From NCBI RefSeq assembly GCF_019977295.1, contig NZ_AP024651.1:2852001-2916000 (forward strand): a stretch of 64,000 nt of DNA. The letters are read 5' to 3'. The stretch is from Arthrobacter sp. StoSoilB20. Its GTDB lineage: Bacteria > Actinomycetota > Actinomycetes > Actinomycetales > Micrococcaceae. Made by a program: the position numbers and the translations under genes. Of this stretch, positions 26,923 through 35,580 are shown in pieces. The first letter of the stretch is position 1. The number at the start of each line of letters is the position of its first letter. The notes under the pieces are model-generated. The model did no database searches. It saw nothing but the letters and a program-made list of their open reading frames with translations, and was not told the DNA's origin.

Positions 26923-27278
26923 GGCGCTTCGGTTCTCCTGGGTGTCCCGGGCGGATGTATCCCCTAAATCTACTGCCGTTTGAGCGAAATTCATGGATCC
27001 GTTGCCGGAACTCCTTGTGGACGGCCAGCCACACCCCTACACTCCTGCCAAGGGCTACTTGGCCTGTTCGTTCCGGTGATCCGGCTGCAAGGTGGGCAGA
27101 AGTTCACTTACAGCTGGATCCGGTCCCGATCTTCGGAACTTCGAGCCAAGGATAAATACCCGTGTTTCATAACTGAAGATCTTGGTTTGACCCTGGCTGG
27201 GGAGCGGCAAGCAGGGACCGTGCGTGAAAAACGCGGACCCATGTACGCATTTTCGGCGCGCCACCTCCAGGAGTTCTG
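26923..27278. other. Divergent intergenic region, smc and the secreted repeat protein
   Basis: 356 nt (or 284 if smc begins at 26994) with no gene of its own. It should hold promoters in both directions; AGGAG at 27269-27273 is the ribosome site for the plus-strand gene. A small GCGT/ACGC hairpin lies near 27220-27238. I compared it with c-di-AMP and other riboswitch consensus elements and saw no match. Confidence 0.5.
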
Positions 27279-30200
27279 ATGCCCGGTACTTCAGCCAACC
27301 GACCCCAGCGAGTCCTCAAGGGCTTCTTAGTGCCCTTGATCCTGGCGATGGTCGCTTCACTCCTGCCTCTCGCGGTGCCAGCCGCCGTCGCAGCGGGACC
27401 CTGCGACCCCGTGGTCAATCCAGTGGTCTGTGAGAACTCCAAACCCGGAAGTCCGCCCTCGGAGTGGGACATCAACGGTGCCGGAGATGACAGCATCCAG
27501 GGATTCTCCACCGATATCAGCGTCAACGTCGGCCAACCCATCCGTTTCAAGGTGGACACCAACGCATCCAACTACACCATCGCGATTTACCGGACAGGGT
27601 GGTACGGAGGCAACGGTGCCCGCAAGATTGCCGATGTCACGCCGTCGGTCCTGCGGCAAAACCAGCCCGCGTGCCGGACTGATGTCGCCACCGGAATCTA
27701 TGACTGCGGCACGTGGGCGGTATCGGCAACGTGGCAGGTACCCACCACGGCCGTGTCCGGTGTCTACATTGCCGTCCTTCGGCGCCCCGATACCGGCGGC
27801 ATGAGCCACATCACGTTCATTGTCCGCAACGACGGCAACCGTTCTGCCGTCATCTTCCAAACCGCTGACCAGACGTGGCAGGCCTACAACTCCTATGGCG
27901 GCGCCGACTTCTACCAAGGAGTCAATGGCCGCGCCTACAAGGTCAGCTACAACCGTCCCGTGGCAACCCGGGGTGGGCCTGATGGCCGGGACTTCTATTT
28001 CGCCAATGAATACCCCATGGTGCGCTTCCTGGAACAGAACGGCTACGACGTCAGCTACATCAGCGGCCTCGATGCTGACCGCAGCGGCGGCGAACTGCTG
28101 ACCCACAAGGTGTTCCTCTCTGTCGGCCACGATGAGTATTGGTCCGGGCCGCAACGGGCAAACGTCACGGCTGCGCGGGATGCGGGGGTCAATCTCCAAT
28201 TCCTTTCGGGCAATGAAATGTACTGGCGGACACGGTTTGAGCCTTCGTCAGTGGATGGTGCAGCCAACCGCACCCTGACCTGTTACAAGGAAACCTGGGC
28301 CAACGAAAAGATTGATCCCACAGCCCAGTGGACAGGTACCTGGCGTGATCCCCGCTTCGCGGCCCAGGCAAATGGAGGCGGCCTGCCCGAGAATGGCCTG
28401 ACAGGTACGCAATACATGTCCAATTTCTCGGACCTGCCGGTCACAGTGAAAGCAGACGAGGGCAAGACCAGGCTTTGGCGGAACACAACCCTGGCTTCGA
28501 TGGCTGCCGGTTCCTCTGCAGCTCTGGCCCCCCATACTGTCGGATACGAATCAGACGAAGACCTGGACAACGGATTCCGGCCGGCGGGCCTCATCCGGTT
28601 GTCCACCACGGTAGGCAGCGTTCCGCAATATCTCCAGGACTTCGGGAACACGGTGGCTGCAGGAACCACCACGCATAACCTCACCCTCTACCGCGCGGCC
28701 AGCGGTGCCCTGGTCTTCTCCGCAGGCAGCGTCCAGTGGACCTGGGGCCTTGACCAGGAGCACGACGGTAATGGTGCACCAGCTGATTCCCGCATGAGGC
28801 AGGCCCAGGTCAACATCCTCGCCGACATGGGCGCCCAGCCCGCCACCCGTGCTGCCGGGCTGGTGGCTGCAGCAGCCAGCACCGACACCACCAAGCCCAC
28901 CGCCGCCATCTCCACGCCGGCCAATGCAGCCACCGTGGCACAAGGCAGCAGCGTCACCGTCACCGGAACGGCCGCCGACGTAGGCGGCGTAGTGGCCGGA
29001 GTCGAGGTTTCCACAGACGGCGGAACCACGTGGCACCCCGCCACGGGCAAGCAAAGCTGGAGCTACACCTACATACAAAAGGGTTTCTCCACAGCCACCA
29101 TCCAGGCACGGGCCATCGACGACAGCGCCAACATCGGTGCCGCTGTCACCAGGAACCTGACCCTCAGTGGTCCCTACAGCGTTTTTGGCCAAACGGTTCC
29201 TGTGGTCAAAGACTCCGGTGACGGTGGAGCCTATGAAATGGGCCTGCGGTTCACCCCGTCAATAGACGGCTTCATCACAGGCGTCCGCTTTTACAAGAGC
29301 ACCGCCAACACAGGCACGCACACCGGATCATTGTGGAGTGCAACCGGCGAGCGCCTGGCCACGGCCACGTTCACCAATGAAACTGCATCCGGCTGGCAGA
29401 CTGCTTTGTTCAGCCAAGCAGTGCCTGTAGCAGCGGGACAGAAATATACCGCCTCCTATTGGGCTCCCAACGGGCACTATGCCACCAAGGACTACCAATG
29501 GGCGAGCTTCGGTTCCACGGACGCGCCTTTGAAGGTTGCTGGTGGTTTCGGAGCTGAACCTGCAGGGGTTTACAGCACCTCTCCAGGGTTCCCCACCACC
29601 AGCTTCAACGGTGGCAACTACTTCGCGGACGCGCTCTTCAGCACGGTAGACAGCTCCCCCATGACCGTCTCGGGCCAAACGCCCATTCCGTCGTCGTCGA
29701 GCGTGTCCGTGAACACCAAGGTAAGCGCTGTGTTTTCCAAGCCGGTCACTACGGCCAGCGTCCAGTTGGCGCTGCAGTCGTCCTCGGGTCCTGTTGCAGG
29801 AACGACGGCGTATGACGCCGCGACGCGGCGGGCCACCTTCACGCCGTCGAGCGCCTTGGCATTCAGCACCCAATATACGGCGACGTTGTCCGGAACCGAT
29901 TCGATCGGCGGCGGCGTCACGGCAGGCGGGACCTGGTCCTTCACCACTGCTGCCACGCTGCCGGTTCCGGGCGCTTGTCCATGCAGCCTCTTCGATGACT
30001 CGGTCACTCCGGGGATTGCCGAACTGCGTGAAGGCGTGCCCTTGACCCTAGGGGTTAGATTCTCCAGTGTTTCCGCTGGTGAAGTCCTCGGTATCCGCTT
30101 CTACAAGGCCGCCGGGAACACCGGCACCCACAATGGCGCCCTGTACACCGCTGCGGGCCAGCAATTGGCGACAGTGGCGTTCACCAATGAAAGTGCTTCC

Positions 30201-32168
30201 GGATGGCAGACAGCGATGTTCAGCCAACCGGTCCCGATGGCAGCCAACACGGAATACATCGTTTCCTACAAGTCGCTGACCGGTACCTACTCGGCCACAG
30301 CCAACGGCTTTGGGTCAGGGATGAGTGTTGGACCGTTGCGGGCAGCATCTGATGCAGGTGCCTACACCTACAGCGGTGACTTCGCCGCTTCACGATCGAC
30401 CGCCAGCTACCTGGTGGACGTGGTGGTGACCGTGCCGAATCCTGCATTCACAGTCGGCTCACACTCGCCGCTGCCGAACGCTTCGAGTGTTCCCCTGAAC
30501 ACCGCCGTGAGCGCTGTGCTGTCCGAGGCCGCAGTGGCGTCCAGCGTAGGGTTGGCGCTGAAAGCGAGCGGCGGGACCTCCGTAGCGGGCACGACTGCCT
30601 ACGACTCCGCCACCCGCAAAGTCACCTTCACTCCTACTGCTCCACTGGCCGCAGGTACCACCTACACGGCGACAGTGACGGCAACCTCGGTCTCAGGTCA
30701 ACCCATGTCCGCCGGCGGAACCTGGACGTTCGCAACGGTTCCCGCGCCGCGCACACCGGGTGCTTGTCCGTGCACGCTGTACCAGGACACCGTGACACCC
30801 ACCACCCCTGATGCGAATGACGGAGTTGCGTTGTCCCTCGGTGTGCGGTTCGCCAGCGATACTGCCGGGCAGATCACCGGGGTGCGCTTCTATAAAGCCG
30901 CCGGCAACACAGGCACCCACACGGGATCGCTCTACACGGCCGCGGGACAACTCCTGGCCACCGCTACCTTCACCAACGAATCAAGTACCGGGTGGCAGAC
31001 TGTCACTTTCAGCCAACCGGTCAGCATCGAAGCCGACACCGAGTACGTGGCCGCCTATAAGGCCCCCACGGGCAAGTACTCATACACCGCCGGCGGATTT
31101 GGTGCAGGATTGACCAGCGGACCGTTGCGCACCGCCAATGACTCGGGAGCCTTCAGCTACACCACTGATTTCCCGGCATCATCATCGACCTCCAGTTACC
31201 TGGTGGATGTGGTGTTCGCTACAGCTGTGCAGCCGCTGACAGTCACCGAACAGGTACCCGCCCCTGGCGCCACCGGCATCCCAACGGACGTCAAGCCCTC
31301 CATCACCTTCTCGGCCGCCATCAACCCGGGAGCGACTTTCACCCTGACAGCCAACGGCAACCCCGTGGCGGGGTCAGCTGCCCTTTCCGCCGACAACCGG
31401 ACCATCACGTTCACCCCCACTGCGGCGCTGCCGAACAGCTCAGTGGTCACGGCCAACGTGGGCAACGTCGTCTCCCAGCAGGGGCAAACCTTCCCGGCCG
31501 GCAACTGGCAATTCACGACGGCGGCTCCCACCGTCCAGCTGTCAACGATCTTTGGCTCGCTGACACCGCAAACAGTGACCGCGAGCGACTTCATGCCGGT
31601 GGAACTTGGCACCGCGTTCAGTGTTTCGCAGGCAGGGAATGTGACGGGGATTCGTTTCTACAAGGGGGCCGGCAACACCGGAACCCACGTAGGTTCGCTG
31701 TGGAACTCGGCCGGTACGCGCCTGGCGCAGGTGACCTTCACCAATGAAACAGCTACTGGCTGGCAGACCGCTACACTGGCTGCCCCGGTGGCGTTGGTGA
31801 CAGGCCAAACCTACGTGGTGTCCTACCGGGCACCCAATGGCCGCTACTCCTATACCTCTGCGTTCTTCAACCAGACCTACACAAGCGGGGTGTTCACAGC
31901 CAGTGGCCCGAACAACGGGCGCTACCGGTACGGATCCGGGGGTGTGATGCCTGCCAACTCCTGGAACGCCACCAACTACTTTGTTGATGTGGTGTATTCC
32001 ACCACAGCACCGGCACAGCAGACCGCGGCCCCGTCCCCCACCGCTACTCCTACTCCTACGCCAACGGCGACGGCGACGGCCACGCCAACTGCTTCACCGA
32101 GTCCCTCACCCAGCCCGAGTCCGACGCAGTCAGGCGGACTCCTCTGCGGCTTGTTGGGTACCTGCTGA
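27279..32168 (+). CDS. Large secreted DMFase-like/Ig-like/DUF4082 repeat protein
   Basis: 1629-aa exported protein. Residues 1-38 are a Sec signal peptide (cleavage after AVPAAVA). About 40-525 resemble the C-terminal part of the N,N-dimethylformamidase beta subunit family, with SVGHDEYWSGPQR and GVNLQFLSGNEMYWR. An Ig-like domain covers about 545-630. Four DUF4082 domains follow, each with [VI]RFYK at 669, 939, 1202 and 1458, NTGTH and FTNE[TS]..GWQT. SbsA-type Ig domains (about 793-890, 1053-1155, 1318-1414) separate them. The end is a Thr/Pro then Ser/Pro stalk and LLCGLLGTC, with no LPXTG. AGGAG lies 6 nt before the ATG. Probably a cell-surface or extracellular carbohydrate- or matrix-interacting protein; enzymatic activity is unproven. 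Confidence 0.93.
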   Translation: MPGTSANRPQRVLKGFLVPLILAMVASLLPLAVPAAVAAGPCDPVVNPVVCENSKPGSPPSEWDINGAGDDSIQGFSTDISVNVGQPIRFKVDTNASNYTIAIYRTGWYGGNGARKIADVTPSVLRQNQPACRTDVATGIYDCGTWAVSATWQVPTTAVSGVYIAVLRRPDTGGMSHITFIVRNDGNRSAVIFQTADQTWQAYNSYGGADFYQGVNGRAYKVSYNRPVATRGGPDGRDFYFANEYPMVRFLEQNGYDVSYISGLDADRSGGELLTHKVFLSVGHDEYWSGPQRANVTAARDAGVNLQFLSGNEMYWRTRFEPSSVDGAANRTLTCYKETWANEKIDPTAQWTGTWRDPRFAAQANGGGLPENGLTGTQYMSNFSDLPVTVKADEGKTRLWRNTTLASMAAGSSAALAPHTVGYESDEDLDNGFRPAGLIRLSTTVGSVPQYLQDFGNTVAAGTTTHNLTLYRAASGALVFSAGSVQWTWGLDQEHDGNGAPADSRMRQAQVNILADMGAQPATRAAGLVAAAASTDTTKPTAAISTPANAATVAQGSSVTVTGTAADVGGVVAGVEVSTDGGTTWHPATGKQSWSYTYIQKGFSTATIQARAIDDSANIGAAVTRNLTLSGPYSVFGQTVPVVKDSGDGGAYEMGLRFTPSIDGFITGVRFYKSTANTGTHTGSLWSATGERLATATFTNETASGWQTALFSQAVPVAAGQKYTASYWAPNGHYATKDYQWASFGSTDAPLKVAGGFGAEPAGVYSTSPGFPTTSFNGGNYFADALFSTVDSSPMTVSGQTPIPSSSSVSVNTKVSAVFSKPVTTASVQLALQSSSGPVAGTTAYDAATRRATFTPSSALAFSTQYTATLSGTDSIGGGVTAGGTWSFTTAATLPVPGACPCSLFDDSVTPGIAELREGVPLTLGVRFSSVSAGEVLGIRFYKAAGNTGTHNGALYTAAGQQLATVAFTNESASGWQTAMFSQPVPMAANTEYIVSYKSLTGTYSATANGFGSGMSVGPLRAASDAGAYTYSGDFAASRSTASYLVDVVVTVPNPAFTVGSHSPLPNASSVPLNTAVSAVLSEAAVASSVGLALKASGGTSVAGTTAYDSATRKVTFTPTAPLAAGTTYTATVTATSVSGQPMSAGGTWTFATVPAPRTPGACPCTLYQDTVTPTTPDANDGVALSLGVRFASDTAGQITGVRFYKAAGNTGTHTGSLYTAAGQLLATATFTNESSTGWQTVTFSQPVSIEADTEYVAAYKAPTGKYSYTAGGFGAGLTSGPLRTANDSGAFSYTTDFPASSSTSSYLVDVVFATAVQPLTVTEQVPAPGATGIPTDVKPSITFSAAINPGATFTLTANGNPVAGSAALSADNRTITFTPTAALPNSSVVTANVGNVVSQQGQTFPAGNWQFTTAAPTVQLSTIFGSLTPQTVTASDFMPVELGTAFSVSQAGNVTGIRFYKGAGNTGTHVGSLWNSAGTRLAQVTFTNETATGWQTATLAAPVALVTGQTYVVSYRAPNGRYSYTSAFFNQTYTSGVFTASGPNNGRYRYGSGGVMPANSWNATNYFVDVVYSTTAPAQQTAAPSPTATPTPTPTATATATPTASPSPSPSPSPTQSGGLLCGLLGTC

Positions 32169-32266
32169 GTCAGCCGGCGCACCACAGGCGCCTCTCTACA
32201 GCGGGGTACCACTACAGCGGCGCACTACAGCCACCCTCTCTCAGCGGCGCACCACGACGGGACGAA

Positions 32267-32293
32267 GCCGGGCGGCCAGGAGTTCCGCCCGGC
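32267..32293. terminator. Hairpin between converging genes
   Basis: GCCGGGCGG (32267-32275) and CCGCCCGGC (32285-32293), a perfect 9-bp stem with a 9-nt loop, between the end of the secreted protein gene and the converging operon. Neither side has a T-tract, so it may end transcription poorly or only with Rho. Confidence 0.45.
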
Positions 32294-32332
32294 GGTGAAC
32301 TACCCATTATTGGTGTCGACACCGAGTGGGGC

Positions 32333-33361
32333 TCAGCGCACAACGCTTGGGGACCACGCATGGGCTATGAACAGGCTGGGTTGCGAGCCTGGTTCGGTGC
32401 CCAGTTGCCAGATGTTGCTGTCACCTTCCACTGCGTCATCCGGCAAGCCGTAAAGCAAGTTCTTCCCATCCAGCCATTCGATCTGGTCATCCACGCTGCG
32501 CTGCTCCGAAAGAACGCTTTCCTGCCCTGACGCGAGGTCAAGGACGGCGACCTTCCAATGGGCAACCAGCCCGCCGCCGTCGTTCTTCTTATAAGCGATG
32601 CGCGTGCCGTCAGGTGAAATGGACGGGCATTCCACTTGGTCGTGGATGGCGGTGAGTGTCTTGGCGGACAAGCTTCCCCGAACCAGCCAAATGCGGCCTG
32701 AGGACGCCGCTGTGGCGTAGAAGACGTCGCTCTGGCCTGGAGCGAAGGTCACTCCCCAGATGTTCCTGTCCGTTGCTGCCAGGCGCTCGCCGTTGACCAA
32801 CAACGCGAAGTCCTCCAAGTTCCCGGACGTTCCACCGGGCAAGCTGATCTCCGTGGCCGTGGAAAATCCCGAAGCGGCGTAGGAGTGTCCGGTAATAAAG
32901 ACCGTCGTGGCAATCATCGAGCCGTCAGCGCTGACCCTGGCCCTGCTGGGGATGCCAGGGAGAGCCCATGAGCGTTGGGGCTGCCAGTCACGGTCCAGGA
33001 CTGCGGCTTCAAATGAGGTGACCAGGCCGCGGTTGGTTTTCAGGCACACCACGTTTTGGGCTGTCCCATAGACGCGGTCGCATTCCTGTTCGCTCACAGC
33101 CCGTGGACCGCCCGGAGCGGACAGGGGAACTGTGGCCGCACTGCCATAGCCCTGGCCTGAGGCTGTGTTGCGGAAAAGGACGAAAGGAACGTTCGGAAGT
33201 GACTGGCCCGCCGTGACTCCCACGGAGGAAGCTGCGGTCCGGCTCTCTTCAAACCGTTGATAGGCGCCCACAGCATAGATCCCCGCCACGACCAGCACCA
33301 GCGCGGTCACGGTTAGGAGGACGGTCCATCGGGTTTTGCTGCCGGCCAGGGTCCCACTCAT
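32333..33361 (-). CDS. Membrane-anchored TolB/PD40-like beta-propeller protein
   Basis: 342 aa. A single N-terminal membrane helix (about 12-33) anchors an extracellular domain that looks like a beta-propeller: ISPDGTRIAYKKN is a PD40-type blade, and ARVSADGSMIATTVF, IWGVTFAPGQSDVFY and IEWLDGKNLLYGLPDD are similar strands. Two Cys (EQECDRVYG and NVVCLKTN) could make a disulfide. The ATG overlaps the MFS stop by 4 nt, so it is translationally coupled as the last gene of the three-gene operon that converges on the secreted repeat protein. Propellers of this kind bind ligands or partners; no catalytic residues are apparent. Confidence 0.85.
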   Translation of the reverse strand: MSGTLAGSKTRWTVLLTVTALVLVVAGIYAVGAYQRFEESRTAASSVGVTAGQSLPNVPFVLFRNTASGQGYGSAATVPLSAPGGPRAVSEQECDRVYGTAQNVVCLKTNRGLVTSFEAAVLDRDWQPQRSWALPGIPSRARVSADGSMIATTVFITGHSYAASGFSTATEISLPGGTSGNLEDFALLVNGERLAATDRNIWGVTFAPGQSDVFYATAASSGRIWLVRGSLSAKTLTAIHDQVECPSISPDGTRIAYKKNDGGGLVAHWKVAVLDLASGQESVLSEQRSVDDQIEWLDGKNLLYGLPDDAVEGDSNIWQLGTEPGSQPSLFIAHAWSPSVVR

Positions 33362-34659
33362 CCTGCAGTGCCTGCGTCCTGGTGTATTGCAGGCCGGGCG
33401 CTCCGCAGGATCACCGCCACAGCCAGCACCGCGCAAGCCAGGAGAACGCTTGCCAGCAGCATCGCTGTCGGGGCACCGAGTGCGAACCAGAGCACGCCAA
33501 AGCCCGCGGAGGCGGCCATGCGGCTCAATGCCACCACCGTTTGTGCTGAGGCAATTCCGGTGGCAAGTTTTCCTGCGGGGGTGAGCTGGCCTGCCAAGGC
33601 GGCCAGGACGCCGTCGGTTGCAGCGTAAAACGCGCCCAACAGCACCAGGCATCCCACCGTGCCCCACAAGCCCCCGAAAGGTACAGCAGCAAGAAGGTAC
33701 GTTGCCAGCAAAGCGATATGCCCACCCACGAAAACCGGCACTTTGCCTACCTTGTCAGCCAGCCGTCCCAATGGCACCGCGAAGGCCAGGAACACCACAT
33801 TCGTGCCGACGAACAGCAGCGGAAACCACTGCACGGCGAACGAATCCCTGTCCTGCAATACCAGGTAGATGAATCCATCACCGATGGTCACCAAGCCAAG
33901 AAGACCTGCGGCGATCAACAATTTGCCCAGTCCGGGCTCCTTCAAATGGCTCCAGGAAAAGGCGAAGAGCCGCCTGCCGTCGAGCCCCTCCGTGGTCTTG
34001 GCGCCAAGAGCACGGATGTCCGGAACCACCAATGCCAGGACGGCAACGCCTATCACGGCGAAGGCGAGCGACACCACGAAGACGGTGCTGAAACCATTGG
34101 GAATCATCAACAGGACAAAGAAGGCGATCAAAGGCCCGGCTGCAGCCCCAATGTTGTCCAGCATTCTGTGAACGCCAAAGGACCGTGCCAAATGTTCAGG
34201 CTGGGCCGAAACTGTGATCAACGCATCCCGTGGGGCCGTCCGAATGCCCTTTCCAATCCTGTCCCCGGTGACTATCGCCGCAACGAACCAAAAACCACCG
34301 GCAAAAAGGAAACCAATCCTGGCCACCATGGATAGTCCATAGCCGGCAAGTGCTATGCGCTTAGGGTGCCCGGTCCGGTCAGCCGCCCACCCGGCCGCAA
34401 TCCTGACGATCGCACTCGCGCCCTGGTTGATTCCGTCGATGAAACCGAAGGCAATAGTGGACAGTCCGAGGAATCCGGTGACATATAAGGGAAGGATTGC
34501 CGTGACGGATTCCGAAGAAACGTCGGTCACCATACTCACGATGCCCAGCCACAAAATGACGGGGGACAAACGGAACGGCACTTCCGCTGCCAGTGCCGTT
34601 GACTTGTTCGTTGACTTGTTCCGTTTACCGCCGCTGCGGTCCGAGAGCGAGATGTACAT
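33358..34659 (-). CDS. MFS transporter
   Basis: Major facilitator protein, 433 aa, 12 membrane helices after a basic N-terminus SDRSGGKRNKSTNKS. LGIVSMVTDVSSESVTAILPLYV is the start of a family of MFS proteins often annotated only as MFS; GWAADRTGHPKRIALAGYG is motif A-like and IGKGIRTAPRDALI a conserved cytoplasmic loop. It is the middle gene of a compact operon: 6 nt after the upstream secreted/lipid-facing gene and overlapping the propeller gene by 4 nt. The repeated association suggests export or uptake linked to the envelope, but the substrate is unknown. Confidence 0.88.
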   Translation of the reverse strand: MYISLSDRSGGKRNKSTNKSTALAAEVPFRLSPVILWLGIVSMVTDVSSESVTAILPLYVTGFLGLSTIAFGFIDGINQGASAIVRIAAGWAADRTGHPKRIALAGYGLSMVARIGFLFAGGFWFVAAIVTGDRIGKGIRTAPRDALITVSAQPEHLARSFGVHRMLDNIGAAAGPLIAFFVLLMIPNGFSTVFVVSLAFAVIGVAVLALVVPDIRALGAKTTEGLDGRRLFAFSWSHLKEPGLGKLLIAAGLLGLVTIGDGFIYLVLQDRDSFAVQWFPLLFVGTNVVFLAFAVPLGRLADKVGKVPVFVGGHIALLATYLLAAVPFGGLWGTVGCLVLLGAFYAATDGVLAALAGQLTPAGKLATGIASAQTVVALSRMAASAGFGVLWFALGAPTAMLLASVLLACAVLAVAVILRSARPAIHQDAGTAG

Positions 34660-34665
34660 AATTTC

Positions 34666-35385
34666 CTATCCCGCCCTCGTGTGCAGGCTGCCCAACAGTT
34701 GGAAGCGCGAGCCGCCCGTCCCGGTGGTGGATACCGAGACGGTTACCGTGTCCGGGCCGCGCACAAAACGGGCCGCCACAGACCCGTCCGCAGCAGGGGC
34801 CTCTTCGGACCAAAAGCCACGAGAGACCAACGATTGTCGGAAGGAGTCAAGGACCTCGGCCCGTGGCTTGTCCACGATGCCATCCGCTGTGAGCTGCAGG
34901 ATGTCACCGGAAGTGGACACCGAAGTAGAGCCAATGGTGGTTCCGGAGGGCAACGTAACAACGTCTCCCGGCCAGCCGTCCACCAATTCACCCGAAACAC
35001 TCCCTGGTTGGGGAAGCGCCCCGGTGATGAGCGGAGCCGGGGCAGATGGTGCCGGCAAACCCGTTGGTGTGGCGGTGACCGGTGGAAGAACTTCTAGGAG
35101 CTTGGCGGTGGGTTCTCCCGTTTTTCCCTCAGTACCACTGTTGCCGCTGCCGCCGGCAGCAGGGCTGCCCTCTGCGCCGCCGTTTCCAGCCCCCGACGCC
35201 GAACTGCCGGAGGTGGGCGTTTGTGTGCCGGTGGATCCGGCACCCGTACCCGGGCTTGAAGTGGACGATGAAGGGCTTTGCGCCGAAGTGGCTCCGGGCT
35301 TGGCCAGCTGGTCGAGCACAATGGCCACGGCGGCAATCAACACAGCCAGGCATATACCCGCTATGACCAGCCGCCGCGCCATCAT
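34666..35385 (-). CDS. Exported or membrane-anchored Ser/Gly-rich protein
   Basis: 239 aa, not recognised. Residues 5-25 (RLVIAGICLAVLIAAVAIVL) form a signal anchor, followed by a long disordered Ser/Thr/Gly/Pro linker to about 125 (SPSSSTSSPGTGAG, GAGNGGAEGSPAAGG). The C-terminal 110 residues are structured, starting ALPQPGSVSGELVDGWPGD and ending FQLLGSLHTRAG, with DSFRQSLVSRGFWSEEAP as a helix. There are no cysteines or enzyme motifs. It begins at ATGATG overlapping a possible upstream small ORF and is first in the operon with the MFS and propeller genes. Probably an envelope protein working with them; function unknown. Confidence 0.8.
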   Translation of the reverse strand: MMARRLVIAGICLAVLIAAVAIVLDQLAKPGATSAQSPSSSTSSPGTGAGSTGTQTPTSGSSASGAGNGGAEGSPAAGGSGNSGTEGKTGEPTAKLLEVLPPVTATPTGLPAPSAPAPLITGALPQPGSVSGELVDGWPGDVVTLPSGTTIGSTSVSTSGDILQLTADGIVDKPRAEVLDSFRQSLVSRGFWSEEAPAADGSVAARFVRGPDTVTVSVSTTGTGGSRFQLLGSLHTRAG

Positions 35386-35534
35386 GGCATTCCTGGGCCG
35401 GCTGCGATGCGGAAGGGGCTCTGTGGTCCCGAATCAGGAACGGCCACAGGTAGAACTGACGCCACCCGCATTGTGGTGGCGTTGGCCTTGTCGTTGATCA
35501 TTGCGATGGCGATTCGCAGCGCCAAGCTGTTCAT
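35382..35534 (-). CDS. Possible small ORF upstream of the exported protein
   Basis: A 50-aa frame beginning MNSLALRIAIAMINDKANA and ending in TGA within the ATGATG start of the next gene, which would couple the two. Third-position GC is high and the N-terminus is a plausible amphipathic helix. No ribosome site is visible and no family is recognised, so this may be leader sequence rather than a gene. It fills most of the 195-nt gap between mutM and the exported-protein gene. Confidence 0.25.
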   Translation of the reverse strand: MNSLALRIAIAMINDKANATTMRVASVLPVAVPDSGPQSPFRIAAGPGMP

Positions 35535-35580
35535 GGGGACAGTCTGCCATTGCGATCCGGATTCCGGAACAGTCCTGGCC

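Follow-up and report, generated by a model that had tools for sequence, protein, structure and literature searches.

What is the function of a large, probably exported protein that joins a head resembling the enzyme N,N-dimethylformamidase (DMFase) to four copies of the domain DUF4082? This question is raised by a single open reading frame (ORF; positions 27279..32168, + strand) of Arthrobacter sp. StoSoilB20, which begins with an ATG codon and encodes a multi-domain protein of 1629 amino acids. It lies in a stretch of 64,000 nucleotides (contig NZ_AP024651.1, positions 2,852,001 to 2,916,000), hereafter called the window, to which all coordinates refer unless stated otherwise. We computed the domain content of the protein, its predicted fold match, the conservation of its active-site residues, and the linkage and co-occurrence of its gene with an exopolysaccharide (EPS) gene cluster. 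The answer that we tentatively favor is that the protein may be an exported, metal-dependent N-deacylase of the cell's own amino-sugar EPS, tethered to this polymer by its DUF4082 repeats. This reading draws on the conservation of an amidase site, on a nearest fold that belongs, going by its name, to an N-deacetylating acylase, on lectin-like repeats, and on an association with a pathway containing a sugar aminotransferase and an acetyltransferase.

Domain architecture of the 1629-residue protein

Searches with hidden Markov models (HMMs) of Pfam matched DMFA2_C (PF20254) to residues 100-495 (27576..28763, + strand like all features of the gene) with 337.6 bits against a cut-off of 27 (E = 1.6e-100), and DUF4082 (PF13313) to four stretches with 584.4 bits against a cut-off of 28.4 (E = 5.8e-178). 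Big_5 matched in three stretches (E = 2.7e-36), and Big_7, an immunoglobulin (Ig)-like domain, at residues 540-599 (28896..29075; E = 5.6e-7). These matches are far above the chance level. The initial annotation had described a 1629-residue ORF with a head like the DMFase beta subunit and four DUF4082 domains; the motif [VI]RFYK on which it relied is found exactly at residues 669, 939, 1202 and 1458, and the two families that it named were both recovered far above their cut-offs. It had also proposed SbsA-type Ig domains between the repeats. Three Ig-like spacers are indeed present; they belong to the Pfam family Big_5, with a match to a CopC/PcoC-like fold.

The DUF4082 repeats occupy 29193..29624, 30003..30410 and 30792..31205 (HMM match and motif) and 31563..31985 (HMM match). 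They alternate with the Big_5 domains at 29658..29951 (fold match and sequence), 30444..30737 (Pfam) and 31233..31523 (sequence). Matches to SoxC/SorA and to the Mo-co dimerisation domain at residues ~540-620 reflect an Ig-like domain held in common with sulfite oxidases, not a molybdenum enzyme.

The N-terminus (residues 1-40; 27279..27398) resembles a signal peptide, with a hydrophobic 19-mer that starts at residue 11. Judged by eye, this single stretch suggests that the protein is probably exported, in line with the secretion proposed in the initial annotation. A pattern search found no LPxTG anchor anywhere in the protein and no lipobox in residues 1-50. The C-terminus is a Pro/Ser/Thr-rich tail (31998..32165) with the terminal residues SGGLLCGLLGTC; an ending like GGLLCGLLxxC after a Pro/Ser/Thr-rich stretch (32130-32165) is common to many orthologues from Paenarthrobacter and Arthrobacter. 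We rejected this tail as a general sorting signal of the host genome, where its DNA pattern was found once.

Fold and putative active site of the head

The head (residues ~70-520; 27486..28838) was modeled as an Ig-like domain I followed by an alpha/beta domain III, with the predicted fold of DMFase (19% identity to the Paracoccus large subunit, 6lvb, across the fold match) and of N-acetyl-(R)-beta-phenylalanine acylase (20% identity to 8huy, 8i59 and 8i5a, with active-site motifs in common). Profiles were needed for this assignment; a structure search with the single head sequence returned only a chance match, 3f1r (E = 1.3). The acylase is, like DMFase, larger than the head, and acts on a small molecule going by its PDB name; no paper on it was found in the open-licence PMC literature.

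According to passages of PMC7686228, the large subunit of DMFase has three domains, of which the pentraxin domain II spans residues 74-337; its iron is held by a 2-Tyr-1-carboxylate site (Y399, Y440 and E521), H519 is essential, and N547 is called essential in a figure legend. The large subunit has 762 residues, whereas the head studied here has ~450 and no counterpart of domain II: its 416 aligned residues reach from position 3 to position 762 of 6lvb, so that a domain II of 264 residues has no room among them. The protein differs further by its signal-like N-terminus and by a repeat region of ~1100 residues. Because the pentraxin domain is missing and the N-terminus is signal-like, we rejected the plain label DMFase and file the head, from its sequence, as a DMFase-type amidase variant.

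The residues of the iron site and its surroundings have counterparts in the head. Tyr203 (27885..27887) corresponds to Y399 in a transitive sequence alignment via the acylase, and Tyr212 (27912..27914) corresponds to Y440 in the alignment to 6lvb, a column in which the Y440A chain of 6lvd has Ala. By sequence alignment, His284-Asp-Glu286 (28128..28136) matches H519 and E521, and Asn312 (28212..28214) matches N547. All five residues (Y203, Y212, E286, H284 and N312) are identical in 200/200 sequences and in 118/120 of a second set, which consists of proteins from a head-only search that admits ~264-840 amino acids only and includes many fragments. Going by these residues, the head looks like a working iron-dependent amidase.

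The DUF4082 repeats

Repeat 4, modeled on its own (pLDDT, predicted local distance difference test, 95.7), was predicted to be a beta-sandwich like those of PHR domains and of the lectin-like domain of Cwp84. Identity to the Cwp84 domain (4d59, 4ci7) and to the PHR domain (3no8) is 8% and 14%, respectively, and a common fold does not imply a common ligand. Among 121 sequences, our own included, three DUF4082 copies were counted in 5, four in 89, five in 25, seven in one and eight in one; the 79 ORFs from the locus collection described below hold 0 to 5 each, some of them cut by contig ends.

The large size of the protein, the variation of the repeat number from 3 to 8, the lectin-like repeat fold and the EPS linkage reported below would all suit a surface adhesin or matrix protein, whose repeats bind own or foreign polysaccharide and whose head is a non-catalytic scaffold. 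The initial annotation had leaned toward such an adhesin or polysaccharide-binding protein, and its link to polysaccharide holds. A scaffold, however, would not be expected to keep five putative catalytic residues in nearly every head, and 74 of the 120 proteins from the head-only search, many of them fragments, lack DUF4082 by our own model. (Two proteins of that search, P0122 and P0153, come from long contigs.) Because the DMFase-type active site is conserved, we favor an enzyme over a plain adhesin, which is the weaker rival and seems unlikely to us.

EPS biosynthetic genes near relatives of the gene

To place the gene in a genomic context, we used the best 80 of at least 592 confirmed loci from one scan, with flanks of up to 10 kb, and 40 control stretches set at round coordinates, all from one phylum. 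The recurrent neighbors, each family identified from one representative, comprise a DegT/DnrJ/EryC1 aminotransferase, an NAD-dependent epimerase/dehydratase, a Gfo/Idh/MocA dehydrogenase, a polysaccharide flippase, Bac_transf, glycosyltransferase-like families, and an acetyltransferase of the NeuD/PglB/VioB family (172.6 bits versus a cut-off of 160.8). F15 is the one glycosyltransferase-like cluster with a Pfam check behind its name; F13 had no Pfam match at 1e-10, F6 gave only NCBIfam matches under their cut-offs, and the names of F14 and F17 were given by eye. Three further neighbor clusters (F8, F9 and F11) look by eye like antisense ORFs and were excluded from the counts.

By HMMs built from the neighbor clusters, DegT was present in 41 of the 80 loci versus 0 of the 40 controls, Hexapep in 46 versus 1, the epimerase in 40 versus 1, Gfo/Idh in 37 versus 1, the flippase in 31 versus 0, and DegT together with Gfo/Idh in 36 versus 0. 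We scored each locus by the number of families present out of six plus any glycosyltransferase. Since the first HMMs had been built from the test loci themselves, we recounted with models made from one half of the loci and applied to the remaining loci, with the E-value relaxed to 1e-5. Scores of 3 or more were reached by 22/40 and 25/40 unseen loci (47/80 in total) versus 0/40 controls both times, and scores of 2 or more by 25 and 28 of 40 loci versus 2/40 and 2/40 controls; control hits included Gfo/Idh (3 and 4 of 40), GT2_F14 (2 and 3) and GT2_F6 (2 and 2). When the models were left uncut, a locus that scored 3 or more was present in 30 of 46 genus-level groups, among them Acidobacteria, Planctomycetales and bins of proteobacteria.

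The EPS cluster of the host genome and its co-occurrence with the head family

The genome of StoSoilB20 itself (4.78 Mb), in which the gene is the sole DMFA2_C and the sole DUF4082 gene found, carries an EPS cluster at ~2,536-2,552 kb, ~330 kb from the gene. It comprises Bac_transf, Gfo/Idh (E = 7e-182 to the family HMM), epimerase, DegT, a NeuD-type acetyltransferase (187.4 bits versus a cut-off of 160.8), a GT2-like protein, a flippase and further genes, and no DMFA2_C gene lies within it. At its end (L173:15785-17122) stands a gene for a 446-residue protein that looks secreted by eye. The genome also has a second amino-sugar-like set (L174:6601-9298) with Gfo/Idh-like and Hexapep-like genes, and a DegT match at G000:C1:3107611-3108642.

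The five genomes that have the head family all carry the cluster Gfo/Idh (E <= 1e-60; 75-100% identity), versus 4/24 of those that lack it. One-sided Fisher tests gave 0.001 for the 29 genomes, 0.011 for the 19 of the genus and 0.023 with our own genome left out, values that ignore kinship between the genomes. In G016 the head gene lies ~18 kb from the Gfo/Idh gene; in G008, G014 and G015 the two are on different contigs. Gene and cluster thus tend to be found in the same genomes even where they are unlinked. In G016 (L160:1056-12571), the distant homologue stands near genes for a GT2-like protein, a secreted-looking protein and what looks by eye like a chain-length regulator.

This separation also bears on a role in polymer export or assembly, in which the protein would process or anchor the polymer through its Ig-like domains and any amidase activity would be directed at protein or lipid-linked intermediates. 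Flippase and initiating-transferase genes accompany the gene in other genera, and the TolB-like partner described below has one N-terminal hydrophobic stretch, both of which would fit such a role. With our own cluster ~330 kb away and Gfo/Idh on another contig in three genomes, a secreted enzyme that acts on the finished polymer is the simpler explanation, and we regard an export or assembly factor as improbable.

Distribution of the family

The architecture is not unusual: 7430 of 7990 scored proteins were relatives at E <= 1e-3 (query residues 40-1100), with up to 94% identity over this range in Arthrobacter/Paenarthrobacter. Among the 120 relatives listed, those that have a name are mostly called 'DUF4082 domain-containing', 'Ig-like domain-containing' or 'hypothetical protein', and a few 'copper-binding protein CopC'; all 121 sequences, ours included, carry both head and DUF4082. 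The 'DUF4082 domain-containing protein [Arthrobacter sp. D5-1]' has the same architecture at 94% identity, and proteins with DMFA2_C, Big and DUF4082 domains from Actinobacteria and other phyla, with 3-8 repeats, do not differ in kind. The head family is present in 4/18 other genomes of the genus, and DUF4082 in 7/198 genomes across the phylum, our own counted.

The architecture is thus already known and common. What is new here is the predicted fold of the head and the conservation of its active site, the DUF4082 fold model, the EPS linkage, and the co-occurrence with the cluster. In the open-licence PMC literature searched, we found no functional study of the DMFA2_C and DUF4082 family, no characterised family of identical architecture (the initial annotation, too, had known of no described function), and no report of the active-site conservation or the EPS link. 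DUF4082 appears in a table entry of PMC4257694.

The smc-mutM interval

The gene lies downstream of smc. On its far side, on the opposite strand, follow genes for a TolB-like protein, an MFS transporter and a small Ser/Thr-rich protein, and then mutM and rnc. The TolB-like ORF (32333..33361, - strand), which overlaps the end of the MFS gene, encodes 342 residues from an ATG at 33361, with one hydrophobic stretch near the N-terminus; relatives of 342 residues are named 'TolB family protein', and the longer start in the ORF listing is less likely. The MFS transporter (33358..34659, - strand) matches PF07690 (E = 1.2e-22). The small protein (34666..35385, - strand) has one N-terminal hydrophobic stretch and no Pfam match; in L161 and L162 a homologue occupies the corresponding slot.

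A six-frame HMM search found the TolB-like and MFS genes within ~10 kb of the head gene in exactly the same 16/80 loci and in 0/40 controls. The TolB-like gene adjoins the head gene in L025, L026, L029, L039, L040, L043 and L073, and in L072 it comes after the MFS gene; in one Bryobacterales and one Steroidobacteraceae bin the pair adjoins the head gene with 38-41% identity to our own. The initial annotation had spoken of an unrelated-looking envelope operon. That wording is loose for this set of genes, and the recurrence of the pair speaks against a lack of relation. The pair (32333-34659) forms a two-gene unit that is also present in other phyla. The TolB-like gene occurs in 4/5 genomes with the head family versus 3/24 without it, a weaker co-occurrence than that of Gfo/Idh.

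The MFS transporter invites a nutritional explanation, in which DUF4082 binds foreign glycans or surfaces, the head cuts environmental N-acyl amides (chitin-like, peptidoglycan or amide compounds), and the transporter imports the products. The conserved active site, the 16 loci with the pair, EPS scores below 2 in 28/80 loci, and the patchy presence of the family in the genus would agree with a catabolic amidase. Set against this are the strong linkage to EPS synthesis over several phyla, the co-occurrence with the cluster even when unlinked, and the scores of the 16 loci themselves, 10 of which reach 3 or more (5 score zero). We consider the catabolic role rather doubtful.

The smc-mutM interval (26995-35580 here) varies among genomes of the genus: it measures ~0.1 kb to 8.6 kb and holds genes that we take to be ole-like (ACP synthase III-like, alpha/beta-hydrolase/AMP-ligase fusion, epimerase), TolB-like/MFS genes, or the DMFA2_C/DUF4082 gene. 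The distance between the smc and mutM hits is ~70-110 bp in G002, G007, G010 and G012, ~0.6 kb in G005, 2.65 kb in G004 (with the TolB-like gene), 4.9 kb in G001, G003, G006 and G011 (the two of these that were read, G001 and G003, hold ole-like genes), 7.3 kb in G009 (both ole-like and TolB-like genes), and 8.5-8.6 kb in G008 and our own genome. Such a variable slot could be a hot spot and the gene an accessory passenger, with genomic islands producing the EPS linkage as a side effect. However, cluster genes of the same kinds are found nearby in several phyla and co-occur when unlinked, which makes a mere passenger very improbable.

A possible EPS N-deacylase and its meaning

In the mechanism that we infer, the protein would be exported and would act as an extracellular, metal-dependent amidase. 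The head would represent a minimal DMFase-type unit of Ig-like domain I and alpha/beta domain III, with iron held by Y203, Y212 and E286 in a 2-Tyr-1-carboxylate site and with H284 and N312 as catalytic residues. The four PHR/lectin-like DUF4082 repeats, set on Big_5 spacers, would bind the cell's own EPS and keep the head on the polymer, from whose amino sugars it would strip N-acyl groups, most likely N-acetyl. The polymer would be made by the Bac_transf/Gfo-Idh/epimerase/DegT/NeuD-type acetyltransferase/flippase cluster ~330 kb away, and removal of N-acyl groups would alter its charge, adhesion or maturation.

Several observations weigh against this proposal. The gene itself has no EPS genes for neighbors, and 33/80 loci score below 3 for them, 21 of these zero; the aminotransferase, Gfo/Idh and epimerase all fall under the cut-offs of every NCBIfam model that they matched. 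Gfo/Idh is found without the head family in G004 (69% identity), G011 (79%), G017 (50%) and G007 (47%), and the G016 protein is distant (47% identical to our own). The locus set was drawn with the pattern VGHDEYW, which favors H284 and E286; in the second set, N312 is Asp in one sequence and Y203 is gapped in one short protein, and Cys occupies position C132 in 109/120 and C143 in 118/120. DMFase activity depends on a small (15 kDa) subunit in the account given in parts of PMC7686228. No such subunit was noticed among the immediate neighbors, where no homology search with its sequence was made. The fold neighbors of DUF4082 include PHR and phage proteins that are not known to us as sugar binders.

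A known system that works alike is Agd3, a metal-dependent EPS deacetylase (CE18) with the carbohydrate-binding module CBM87, whose homologues occur in putative bacterial EPS operons according to passages of PMC7229062. The likeness is one of working only. Agd3 belongs to another family, and the Pfam hits of the 1629-residue protein included no Agd3 or carbohydrate-esterase-type match. Agd3 aside, we know of polysaccharide de-N-acylation only from carbohydrate-esterase-type enzymes.

With still more reserve than for the single protein, we suggest that there could be a class of secreted, iron-dependent (2-Tyr-1-carboxylate) EPS N-deacylases with the DMFase fold and with DUF4082 as carbohydrate-binding repeats. 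Across several phyla this class would serve a single kind of amino-sugar EPS cluster, from which it could also be carried apart. DMFA2_C proteins outside DMFase and DUF4082 proteins are both large families, and the proposal offers one testable mechanism for both. If true, the DMFase fold would provide an independent solution to polysaccharide de-N-acylation, and a recognisable type of EPS in soil bacteria would be marked by thousands of related proteins in the databases. A further suggestion could be that the unusual iron enzyme that degrades dimethylformamide arose from a widespread family of exported amidases.
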